Source: Brevibacillus brevis
GTDB lineage: Bacteria > Bacillota > Bacilli > Brevibacillales > Brevibacillaceae
Assembly: GCF_031583145.1 (NCBI RefSeq)
Contig: NZ_CP134050.1
Span: forward strand, 2,307,501-2,371,500
Direction of reading: 5' to 3'
Length of the DNA: 64,000 nucleotides
The position numbers and the translations under genes are program-made. Below are positions 16,557 through 24,167 of the stretch, in pieces (within the stretch, counting starts at the first letter, position 1; each line of letters starts with the position of its first letter). The notes beneath the pieces are model-generated. The model saw only the letters and a list, made by a program, of their open reading frames with translations. It did no database searches and was not told where the DNA came from.

Positions 16557-18787
<2,231 letters not shown>

Positions 18788-18934
18788 TCCTCTCACTCCC
18801 TCAGATTTTCGCCAAATCCAAGGGTAGATTTTGTAGGGGGATGTTGGCAAGTGCCTTTTTCATGGCCTCAGAATTGCGGTGGAACTCTGCAGTTTTCCGC
18901 CGCAATTCTCTGCACTTTTATCCTGCCATAAACA

Positions 18935-20946: not shown

Positions 20947-23121
20947 TTATTTCACTGTGGAAACGGTCGGATGATCCGGTTTGATCGCTTCAAAGCGGTA
21001 TCCCTTCGCCTTCAAGAACGAAATGACCTCCGGGAGCGCTTGGGCTGTCGGTGACTTCGTGCTGGAGTCGTGCATCAGGATGACGATTTCCTTCTGGTTT
21101 TTCACCTGCTGCTTGATGTTGGCGAGCGCGCCCTGCGCAGTGTAACGGTTGCTTCGGGCATCGCCGTTGGTCACGTTCCAGTCGATAAAGATGTACCCGC
21201 GTTCATTCGCCTCCGCCTTGATCGCGCTCATGACGGGATGCTCCAGATTGTACAGCTTTGGATCCTGGTATTTGTGGCTGACGGTGTTCGTGCTGCCGCC
21301 AGGATAGCGGAACACGACAGGCTTGACCCCGATTGCCTTTTCAATCAGCTGGTTGCCTTTTTCCAGGTCTGCGAAGAATGCTTCCTTGCTCTTGTACACA
21401 ATTTTGTAGTCGTGCGAGTACGTATGGCCGCCAATCGTGTGGCCTTCCGCATACGCTCGCTTGAGGATGGCCTCATGTCCCGGCACGCTGCGGCCGACAA
21501 TGAAGAACGTTGCCTTGATTCCATACTTTTTCAATGTATCGAGCACTTGCGGCGTGACTACGGAAGGGCCGTCGTCAAATGTCAGATAGGCGACTTTGTC
21601 TGTTGCGGGCTTGGAAGGCGCCGGCGGCTTGACGGTCGGCTGCTGTGTTGTCCCGCCTGATGTTCCAGGCTTTGGCGTCGGCGTAGCTGGCTTCTGCCCA
21701 GTGGCGCCTGGCTTGGCAGTCGGTTTTGTTGAAGGCTGCTGTGTCGTCCCGCCTGGCTTGGCGGTTGGTTGAGTAGCTGGCTGCTGTCCTGTTCCTGGCT
21801 TGGGTAAAGCAGGGGACGTGGCAGGCTGCCCGGTTGCGCCTGGCTTGGTTCCTCCCTGCTGGGCGCCAGCTGGCTGCTGATCTTGCCCGCCGGCCGGCTT
21901 GCTGTGAATCGGTAGAACGGGCTGGTAGGGCTCCTCACCGTAAATGAAAAATGATTTTCGCAGTTCGGCAAAACGAGCCAGCTGCGGAGCGTAGGACGCC
22001 TCGATTTCCTGCGGGCTTTTCTCTTGTTCAAGACTTTGCCCGATAGCATGGGTGCCCATGCGCTTGTCAAACAGGGTGATCTGTCCATCCACGCTTTTGG
22101 GCACGGGGAAATGGCTGAGCTGGTGGGCGTATGCGAGCACATACATACCCGTCTTGGCCGGGTTGAAAACACGCGGGTCGTTGATTTGCAAGCGAACCCC
22201 GCCTGCCGTCCCTTTCATCTCCGGCAAGAAAACGACCCCGGGCAGCAGGCTGGAATTAAGCAGGTCCGCAAAACGGACAGCATCCAGTCCCTCTAGGCCT
22301 ACCCACGCATAGTCGTCTCGCTGCTGCAGCTCCGTTCCTTCTCCGATGCCTGTGGCCAAATAGCTCACGACAGTGTGCAGCGTAGGGAGCTCGGGAGCGC
22401 TTTGCACCCACGGGAGCCCCGTTTCCGGATAGAGCATGCTGCGCGTATACCCTTTCATGGGAATGACGGTCAGGTCCACTCCGATCTCCCGGTTGAAGAA
22501 CAGGGCGAGCTCGCCGATCGTCAAGCCGTGGGCCATTGGCAAGGTATCCGCCCCGATATAGGAGAGGTACGGCGGCTCGAGAAGAGGTCCATCGACGATC
22601 TTTCCGCCAAGGGGGTTGGGGCGATCGAGGACGATGACGGGCTTCCCTTGTTTCTTGGCTGCTTCCATGCAGTCGCGCAAAGCCGTTATGTACGGATTCA
22701 TGCGAAAACCGGTATCTTGCAGGTCGACGAGAAGCACATCCATCCCTGCATACAGTTCCGCTGCGGGCACCCGATTTGCTTCACTCAGGCCGTACACGGG
22801 GATGCCATACACCGGATGTACGTAGGAACCGGCTGGCTGCGCTACGCCCGCCTTGCCATCCAACCCGTTTTCCGGGGTGATCAAGGAGACCAGGGTCACC
22901 TGGCGATCGCGACGCAACAGGTCGATCGTGCTTACGCCCCGGCTGTTTCCCCCCGTCTGATTGGTGAGGAGCCCCACTTTCTTGCCCTCGATCCACGAAT
23001 GAAATTGATCGAACAGTACATCGCTTCCCAATTGAATGGCAGCCGTGTTGGCTGAGCTACCGCCCGGTGGGACCATACATAAGATGAGTGCGAGGATGAG
23101 GAAAGGAATGATTCTTTTCAT
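20947..23121 (-). CDS. secreted two-domain cell-wall enzyme: NamZ-like DUF1343 domain fused to a polysaccharide deacetylase
   Basis: 724 aa. Residues 1-25 are a signal peptide. About 27-400 is DUF1343, the family of exo-beta-N-acetylmuramidase NamZ, with LLTNQTGG, TPENGLDG (usually PEHG), LLVDLQDTGFR and VLDRPNPLGG. About 405-507 is a low-complexity linker of Pro, Thr, Gln, Gly and Lys with short repeats. From 508 on is a CE4 deacetylase with TFDDG (514-518), HTYSH (566-570), RYPGG (605-609), DWNVTNGD and LMHDS (His684). The product is probably secreted and acts on peptidoglycan or its fragments. The third in-frame ATG at 23121, with AGAGG eight bases upstream and a proper signal peptide, is the best start. 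Confidence 0.9.
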   Translation of the reverse strand: MKRIIPFLILALILCMVPPGGSSANTAAIQLGSDVLFDQFHSWIEGKKVGLLTNQTGGNSRGVSTIDLLRRDRQVTLVSLITPENGLDGKAGVAQPAGSYVHPVYGIPVYGLSEANRVPAAELYAGMDVLLVDLQDTGFRMNPYITALRDCMEAAKKQGKPVIVLDRPNPLGGKIVDGPLLEPPYLSYIGADTLPMAHGLTIGELALFFNREIGVDLTVIPMKGYTRSMLYPETGLPWVQSAPELPTLHTVVSYLATGIGEGTELQQRDDYAWVGLEGLDAVRFADLLNSSLLPGVVFLPEMKGTAGGVRLQINDPRVFNPAKTGMYVLAYAHQLSHFPVPKSVDGQITLFDKRMGTHAIGQSLEQEKSPQEIEASYAPQLARFAELRKSFFIYGEEPYQPVLPIHSKPAGGQDQQPAGAQQGGTKPGATGQPATSPALPKPGTGQQPATQPTAKPGGTTQQPSTKPTAKPGATGQKPATPTPKPGTSGGTTQQPTVKPPAPSKPATDKVAYLTFDDGPSVVTPQVLDTLKKYGIKATFFIVGRSVPGHEAILKRAYAEGHTIGGHTYSHDYKIVYKSKEAFFADLEKGNQLIEKAIGVKPVVFRYPGGSTNTVSHKYQDPKLYNLEHPVMSAIKAEANERGYIFIDWNVTNGDARSNRYTAQGALANIKQQVKNQKEIVILMHDSSTKSPTAQALPEVISFLKAKGYRFEAIKPDHPTVSTVK
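21610..21890 (-). repeat. degenerate tandem repeats encoding the Pro/Thr/Gln-rich linker
   Basis: The DNA repeats degenerate units coding for KPG-(A/G)-T-(G/T)-Q and TTQQP. Such repeats may vary in copy number between strains. Confidence 0.6.
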
Positions 23122-23194
23122 CGGCATTGCCTCTTTCAACATGAAAATTTCGTCGTTGCATGTCTATTGTAACGGTTTTTTGAAGCAAGATGGT

Positions 23195-23345: not shown

Positions 23346-23390
23346 TAGATTTAAAACCATGCGAATCTTTTTTGAAATGGAGTGGACTAC

Positions 23391-24167
23391 ATGCTAAAAA
23401 AATTGGCCTCGTTTGTGCTCGCGGTCGCGCTTGTACCCGTAGCGGCTTTTTCTGCTTCCGCCGCTTCCGCCCCGGCTACTATTAAGGTCGAATACAATCA
23501 AAAGGCGATTGCATTCCCGGATCAAAAACCAGTAATCCGTGACAGCCGTACTCTGGTGCCTATCCGTCCGATCGCGGAAAGCCTTGGTTTTGATGTCGAT
23601 TGGAACGAACAAACACGAACGGTGACGATCAACAAAGGAACGAACAATGTCCGTCTTGTCGTCACGCAAAAAATCGCCAAGAAAAATGGACAAACCATCA
23701 ATCTGGACGTTCCTGCGCAAATCATCAACCAACGCACGATGGTGCCCGTTCGTTTCATCGCAGAAGCGTTGAGCTACGGCGTAAACTGGGACCAAGCCAC
23801 GCAAACCGTTAAAATTTCGGACGGGCAGTCGGTTACCCAGCCTTCCGCCACAACGGAGCAGCCGAAGGGCAATGCCACGCAAACCCAAAACAATGGGAAC
23901 ACGACCACATTAATCGACCGGGATTCGATTAAAGGCAAGACATTCACCATCGCCACAATTGGTCTTTATCGGGTGAGTGGTAAGGTAGAACCTGGCAGCG
24001 ACGTTGCCGTTACACTCGAAGACAACACCTTCGAAGTCGACGTGAACGCAGACGGGACTTTCGAGTTCAACAAAGACACGTATGACGGCATCCGCACATT
24101 TACGCTGAAAGCGGAAAAAGACGGCAAGGTAGATACATTCGAAGGCGAGTTTATAAGTAATTCGTAA
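23391..24167 (+). CDS. secreted protein with copper amine oxidase N-terminal-like repeats
   Basis: 258 aa. It has a signal peptide (1-25, AFSASA). Two repeats of the Cu-amine-oxidase N-terminal-like fold follow, centred on RTLVPIRPIAESLGF (53-67) and RTMVPVRFIAEALSYG (115-130). Despite the name this domain is a small cell-surface module in Firmicutes and has no oxidase activity. A Gln/Thr/Asn-rich spacer (about 146-180) leads to an unrecognised acidic beta-rich domain (about 183-258). ATG 23391 follows ATGGAG. The function is probably at the cell wall, but unknown. Confidence 0.82.
   Translation: MLKKLASFVLAVALVPVAAFSASAASAPATIKVEYNQKAIAFPDQKPVIRDSRTLVPIRPIAESLGFDVDWNEQTRTVTINKGTNNVRLVVTQKIAKKNGQTINLDVPAQIINQRTMVPVRFIAEALSYGVNWDQATQTVKISDGQSVTQPSATTEQPKGNATQTQNNGNTTTLIDRDSIKGKTFTIATIGLYRVSGKVEPGSDVAVTLEDNTFEVDVNADGTFEFNKDTYDGIRTFTLKAEKDGKVDTFEGEFISNS

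Follow-up and report, generated by a model that had tools for sequence, protein, structure and literature searches.

Fusion of a NamZ-like domain to a CE4 deacetylase in Brevibacillus, with repeated residue loss on the NamZ side

The window that we analysed, a 64,000-nucleotide stretch of a Brevibacillus brevis contig, encodes a protein in which a NamZ-like domain is joined in one chain to a CE4 polysaccharide deacetylase domain. The fusion recurs across the family Brevibacillaceae, its NamZ part belongs to a subfamily separate from ordinary NamZ, and residues at the NamZ site have been lost repeatedly among the fused proteins. With moderate confidence, we read the window's protein as a secreted deacetylase that is active through its CE4 domain, and whose NamZ-like domain has lost exo-muramidase activity and is kept as a binder of wall glycan.

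The fused protein and its distribution

The fusion gene is a single unbroken ORF on the minus strand (Table 1); residue numbers throughout refer to the 724-residue form. The sequence-only reading had described, at this position, a DUF1343 (NamZ) domain and a CE4 domain fused in one secreted protein with a repeat-rich linker between them. Its coordinates, domains and single-chain layout are borne out by the ORF and by Pfam: the two NamZ profiles PF07075 and PF20732 score 220.4 and 67.7 bits (cut-offs 26.9 and 25), and Polysacc_deac_1 (PF01522) matches residues 504-616 with an E-value of 9.3e-34. The linker is also as described, with the residues P, T, Q, G, A, S and K making up 91% of a stretch of 110, and secretion is supported by a signal peptide judged by eye. 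A PPGGSSAN stretch near the N-terminus is invariant in a four-row alignment. The best solved matches of the NamZ part in a sequence search are 4k05 (E = 5.2e-51) and 4jja, and an AF2 run on the window protein and three orthologs gave a low-confidence model (pLDDT 50.9, pTM 0.37). A scan for promoters and terminators found nothing above shuffled sequences. Elsewhere in the window, two overlapping minus-strand ORFs at 16557-18850 have, from their translations alone, the look of an IS21-type pair (ATPase plus transposase).

Table 1. Features of the fusion gene and its divergent neighbour, in window coordinates
Feature	Position	Strand	Basis or remark
NamZ-CE4 fusion ORF	20947..23142	-	731 aa from ATG 23142; 724 aa from ATG 23121; stop at 20947
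Sec-type signal peptide, residues 1-25	23047..23121	-	Judged by eye; no lipobox seen
NamZ_N (PF07075), residues 49-248	22378..22977	-	Pfam, E = 2.1e-65
PENG, residues 83-86 (Glu84, Asn85)	22864..22875	-	Sequence and alignment
GFRMNPY, residues 138-144 (GxRxYT[YF] in most relatives)	22690..22710	-	Alignment
EGTELQQRDDYAWVG loop, residues 261-275, replacing EGTNxSEGRGTxxPFExxGAP	22297..22341	-	Alignment
NamZ_C (PF20732), residues 254-394	21940..22362	-	Pfam, E = 2.6e-18
Pro/Thr/Gln/Gly/Lys linker, about residues 403-503	21613..21915	-	Composition
CE4 polysaccharide deacetylase domain, about residues 504-717 (TFDDGPS, HTYSH, RYPGGS, DWN, LMHD)	20971..21612	-	Pfam and motifs
Divergent neighbour with Cu_amine_oxidN1 (PF07833)	23382..24167	+	Pfam

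As the criterion for a deacetylase we take the CE4 motif set D-D, H..H, R, D-W and H. All of these residues are present in the window alongside the PF01522 match, and they are intact in all 38 CE4-fused rows of our alignment, except that the last His is seen in 37 and falls in a gap in the other. The best solved match, 5jmu (E = 1.7e-36), is named a peptidoglycan N-acetylglucosamine deacetylase. The equivalog model PgdA2_Bac (NCBIfam NF045822) gives 126 bits against a cut-off of 400, and because of this low score no named specificity can be assigned. We consider the CE4 domain to be a working enzyme, which would make the protein a secreted peptidoglycan N-deacetylase if peptidoglycan is, as we expect, its substrate. 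Peptidoglycan deacetylation affects lysozyme resistance and autolysis; to our knowledge, little has been established on how deacetylases are aimed.

NamZ and CE4 are found in one chain in 34 of 39 genomes of the family, comprising all 26 from Brevibacillus and 8 of the 13 others; the five genomes that do not have it belong to the family genera g5, g6 and g7. Beyond the family, a class sample of 398 genomes contained the pairing in at least three genomes of one other family (loci L071, L072 and L078), and in a phylum sample, also of 398 genomes, none of the listed matches reached CE4 apart from that of the window's own genome, with two candidates scored per genome in both samples, so that rarer cases can be missed. 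A scan of named genomes recovered five loci: full-length orthologs in Brevibacillus centrosporus, B. parabrevis and B. invocatus, and two partial CE4 relatives. These counts exclude L003, which is the same gene as L004, and L086-L088, which apparently duplicate L018, L007 and L010; NamZ is absent from rows L085, L089 and L090. With 37 genomes sharing the architecture (34 inside the family and 3 outside), each with both domains in one open frame, the fusion is neither a frameshift nor a chance join. The sequence-only reading would have been refuted by a fusion both common and characterised. Common it is within the family, but among the papers listed in our literature search, largely without subscription journals, we found no description of a NamZ/DUF1343 protein fused to a deacetylase.

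Two further loci were noted during these counts. Genome G001 carries a second NamZ-CE4 copy (L084), which has three site losses and whose CE4 match ends early, at query residue 675. A CE4 protein without NamZ, 51% identical to that of the fusion, is encoded at L085:1495-2730, in a family genus where no fusion was found.

The NamZ subfamily and its Cu_amine_oxidN1 partner

The window's NamZ domain and its relatives, 51 in all, are split from ordinary NamZ in a quick tree (SH-aLRT 100), and the N-terminal domain of the fusion descends from this distinct subfamily of NamZ (GH171). Every one of the 51 rows, including the window's, is missing the SEGRGT(-PF) loop of ordinary NamZ; in its place is a different loop, conserved within the subfamily and typically GEGTGxxQADxFKWIGG. 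Among 52 ordinary NamZ rows we found SEGRGT in 46, S[LV]GRGT in four and STGLGT in two. SEGRGT is present in 32 of 32 rows of our first ordinary set, which leans towards typical NamZ (the 30 best-scoring rows plus two from the window's own genome), and 20 weaker rows were then added. The trees took in 24, 15 and 13 of the 52 ordinary rows.

The same subfamily is present in other families of the phylum. Beyond the class, 39 genomes matched at 47% identity or more, and in the 20 that we examined each protein has a Cu_amine_oxidN1 domain, a call confirmed by Pfam for L111 and made for the other 19 through similarity to the window's neighbour protein. These 20 proteins all retain PEHG and RxYT[YF] (YTY in 19, YTF in one) and all lack SEGRGT, and 19 of them fit the subfamily's loop pattern, the exception being L129.

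Cu_amine_oxidN1 also recurs around the fusion. It is encoded by a divergent neighbour at 20 of 26 Brevibacillus loci, and a neighbour of this kind stands beside the standalone NamZ gene of L067; about 1.5 kb of flank at the family's eight remaining fused loci contains none. In L070 the domain is fused N-terminally to a subfamily NamZ, and L078 has NamZ, Cu_amine_oxidN1 and CE4 in one chain, with a weaker match at the same place in L071 and L072. A likely path is that CE4 was added to a protein consisting of NamZ plus Cu_amine_oxidN1, and that the linker later replaced Cu_amine_oxidN1; the CE4 state changes at least three times on the tree, which is compatible with more than one order and number of fusions. 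In the literature searched we found no assay of a NamZ of the subfamily tied to Cu_amine_oxidN1. The PF07833 domain itself has been studied for a role in dimerisation, as opposed to wall binding (PMC10432803).

Residue loss at the NamZ site

We scored losses at 11 conserved sites, which were chosen after viewing the alignments. At least one of them is lost in 22 of the 38 CE4-fused rows, and three or more in 11 of these rows. Among subfamily rows without CE4, 32 of 33 are free of losses (0/13 with a loss among 12 standalone proteins plus L070, and 1/20 among the Cu_amine_oxidN1 proteins). Of the 52 ordinary NamZ rows, 11 are altered at one or two sites and none at three or more. On trees built without the 11 columns, at least four changes are needed to account for rows with three or more losses, and six to account for any loss; since the outgroups retain the residues, we take the changes to be losses. 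One genus holds intact, half-changed and strongly changed forms of the domain. CE4 fusion and residue loss give only two independent pairs on the tree, which is too few for a test of association. Some change at the 11 sites seems to be tolerated in presumably working enzymes, since the solved relative 4k05 has Phe in place of the first Tyr of RxYTY, and in view of the 11 ordinary rows that depart.

The sequence-only reading had noticed PENG where PEHG is usual and suspected that this alters or kills the first activity. The observation is correct, and the suspicion gains support at the sequence level from several other conserved positions that are changed besides PENG, so a single-site oddity is ruled out. 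In ordinary NamZ the E, H and G of PEHG are invariant in 52 of 52 rows and the P in 50. The window's losses at the 11 sites are His85 to Asn, Tyr142 to Asn, Thr143 to Pro and Thr147 to Ala, the second and third of which turn RxYTY into RMNPY (residues 140-144); Gly94, Tyr113 and others are changed too, and the SEGRGT loop is absent. Five of the changed residues (His85, Gly94, Tyr113, Tyr142 and Thr143) are invariant in all 52 ordinary rows and in all 33 subfamily rows without CE4.

A second count is independent of the choice of sites. At 99 columns the 33 rows without CE4 show no variation, and 23 of these columns are changed in the window; since the baseline rows are unchanged by the way the columns were defined, a fair yardstick is given by the other fused rows, which have 0-36 changes. 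The window's clade mates L005 and L018 have 22 and 25, the intact-looking congeners L023-L031 have five or six, and L078 has none. The window's changes cluster in residues 79-147, which hold 14 changes in 30 invariant columns compared to 9 in the other 69 (Fisher P = 0.0006, for a segment chosen post hoc). Glu84, which we take to be the expected catalytic acid of NamZ, is retained, together with Asp133, Gln135, Asp136, Arg140, Asp166, Arg167, His198, Thr201, Glu204 and Arg227. Judged from the alignment, the window's NamZ site is changed and not erased.

With these residues gone, exo-muramidase activity of the window's NamZ domain is probably lost or poor. Under the reading that we favour, the domain would bind wall glycan, perhaps at non-reducing chain ends, and would thereby anchor the deacetylase, through its flexible linker, to the substrate. 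More tentatively, NamZ may have been converted repeatedly after fusion into a pseudo-glycosidase that reads non-reducing chain ends and targets the deacetylase there. If degraded NamZ domains are such readers, the genus offers a natural series from hydrolase to binding domain. We also speculate that, if NamZ catalysis uses the acetamido group of MurNAc, the protein's own deacetylation would block a muramidase, favouring a binding role.

The chief alternative is that both domains are active, NamZ still being an exo-muramidase or a related exo-glycosidase with an altered pocket, so that trimming is coupled to deacetylation. A bifunctional enzyme is conceivable mainly because Glu84 is retained, along with many other conserved residues, and the subfamily's conserved loop suggests a working site that is differently built. 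The window's NamZ is also at least as close to the outgroups as its CE4 is (0.72 compared to 0.80, a ratio of 0.91). Against this, the five invariant residues listed above are lost, and Glu itself is lost from PEHG in 3 of the 38 rows of the same architecture. We regard joint activity in the window's protein as possible but doubtful. Coupled trimming and deacetylation, which the sequence-only reading had proposed, is weakened for this protein by the loss of those five residues and by the presence of two ordinary namZ genes elsewhere in the genome; it may hold for the congeners L023-L031, L009 and L012, in which PEHG and RxYTY are intact.

The two ordinary namZ genes are each followed by a beta-lactamase-family gene and a GH3 gene (L131 and L132). 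We take these followers to belong to the families of AmiE and NagZ, respectively. Chain-end trimming is therefore probably supplied elsewhere in the window's genome. Genes with sigma-70 regions flank the first of these runs on both sides. An explanation compatible with the favoured reading, which we nevertheless think unlikely, is that ordinary NamZ took over trimming and the redundant fused copy then changed its role. Two or more losses are seen in the fused first copy of 5/5 Brevibacillus genomes that have an ordinary NamZ, compared to 4/21 of those that do not; however, just two clades account for all five. Moreover, G014, G015, G016 and G010, and outside the genus G026, G032 and G033, have lost residues but have no ordinary NamZ match, whereas G028-G030 have an ordinary NamZ and merely one or two losses.

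Across Brevibacillus (27 rows, one from each of the 26 genomes and the extra copy L084), NamZ domains that lie further from the outgroups tend to have more losses (rho = 0.70, P = 5e-5), and CE4 distance shows no such trend (rho = 0.11, P = 0.60); the rows are related, which makes these P-values too small. In the closest pairs that include the window's gene, synonymous divergence has reached saturation. In the pair L008/L011, dN/dS is 0.27 for NamZ and 0.15 for CE4. The strongly degraded pair L033/L034 has values of 0.048 and 0.072, and its NamZ, whose value lies in the range of intact pairs, is under purifying selection. Constraint on NamZ thus seems weaker where residues have been lost, yet is still evident in L033/L034, the only strongly degraded pair for which it could be measured. 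Least probable is that NamZ is a passenger under relaxed selection, with no present function and heading for loss: the greater NamZ divergence of degraded lineages, the L008/L011 ratio and the absence of the fusion from the five genomes of g5, g6 and g7 would fit, but L033/L034 does not, every one of the 38 fused rows matches NamZ_N from profile position 1 or 2 through to 201 or 202, and Asp133, Gln135, Asp166, His198 and Glu204 are retained in all 38.

Comparison with known systems

Both the NamZ and the CE4 families are already known; in the literature that we searched we found neither this architecture, nor a subfamily without SEGRGT, nor recurrent decay of NamZ after fusion. We take NamZ (YbbC) of Bacillus subtilis to be an exo-beta-N-acetylmuramidase of family GH171, corresponding to DUF1343, and the founding NamZ paper is reportedly that of Muller in 2021 in JBC. 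The window's protein shares both NamZ Pfam domains with it, and its NamZ part is 37-38% identical to each of the two ordinary NamZ proteins of its own genome. It differs from NamZ/YbbC in being fused to CE4, in having PENG for PEHG and RMNPY for RxYTY, and in lacking the SEGRGT loop. Next to its gene lie AMP-binding, Cu_amine_oxidN1 and YhcN-type genes, and not GH3 or beta-lactamase-family genes. Matches to PF07075 should be checked for PEHG, RxYTY and the SEGRGT loop before they are annotated as muramidases.

In B. subtilis, amiE, nagZ and ybbC (namZ) are adjacent in another order and lie behind murQRP (PMC5061867). Natural transformation was lost in a DUF1343 mutant of another bacterium (PMC8459023). 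Ordinary NamZ also occurs with other domains: at L107:752-3169, in another family genus, it shares a chain with a beta-lactamase-family domain, and at L036:1321-2850 it has a C-terminal FIMAH domain.

Closer in sequence are the proteins that combine NamZ with Cu_amine_oxidN1 (for example L111, L114, L122 and L128), which belong to the same subfamily as the window's NamZ (48-54% identity among the 20 examined) and have the same type of loop. They have a C-terminal Cu_amine_oxidN1 where the window has linker and CE4, and they keep PEHG and RxYT[YF]. L071, L072 and L078 resemble the window in carrying a subfamily NamZ and CE4 in one chain, but have an intervening Cu_amine_oxidN1 domain (above the Pfam threshold in L078) and no losses at the 11 sites. 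On the deacetylase side, the window shares all motif residues with the CE4 peptidoglycan deacetylases of the PgdA, PdaA, PdaB and PdaC type, and its CE4 domain differs from PgdA2_Bac, falling far under the equivalog cut-off.
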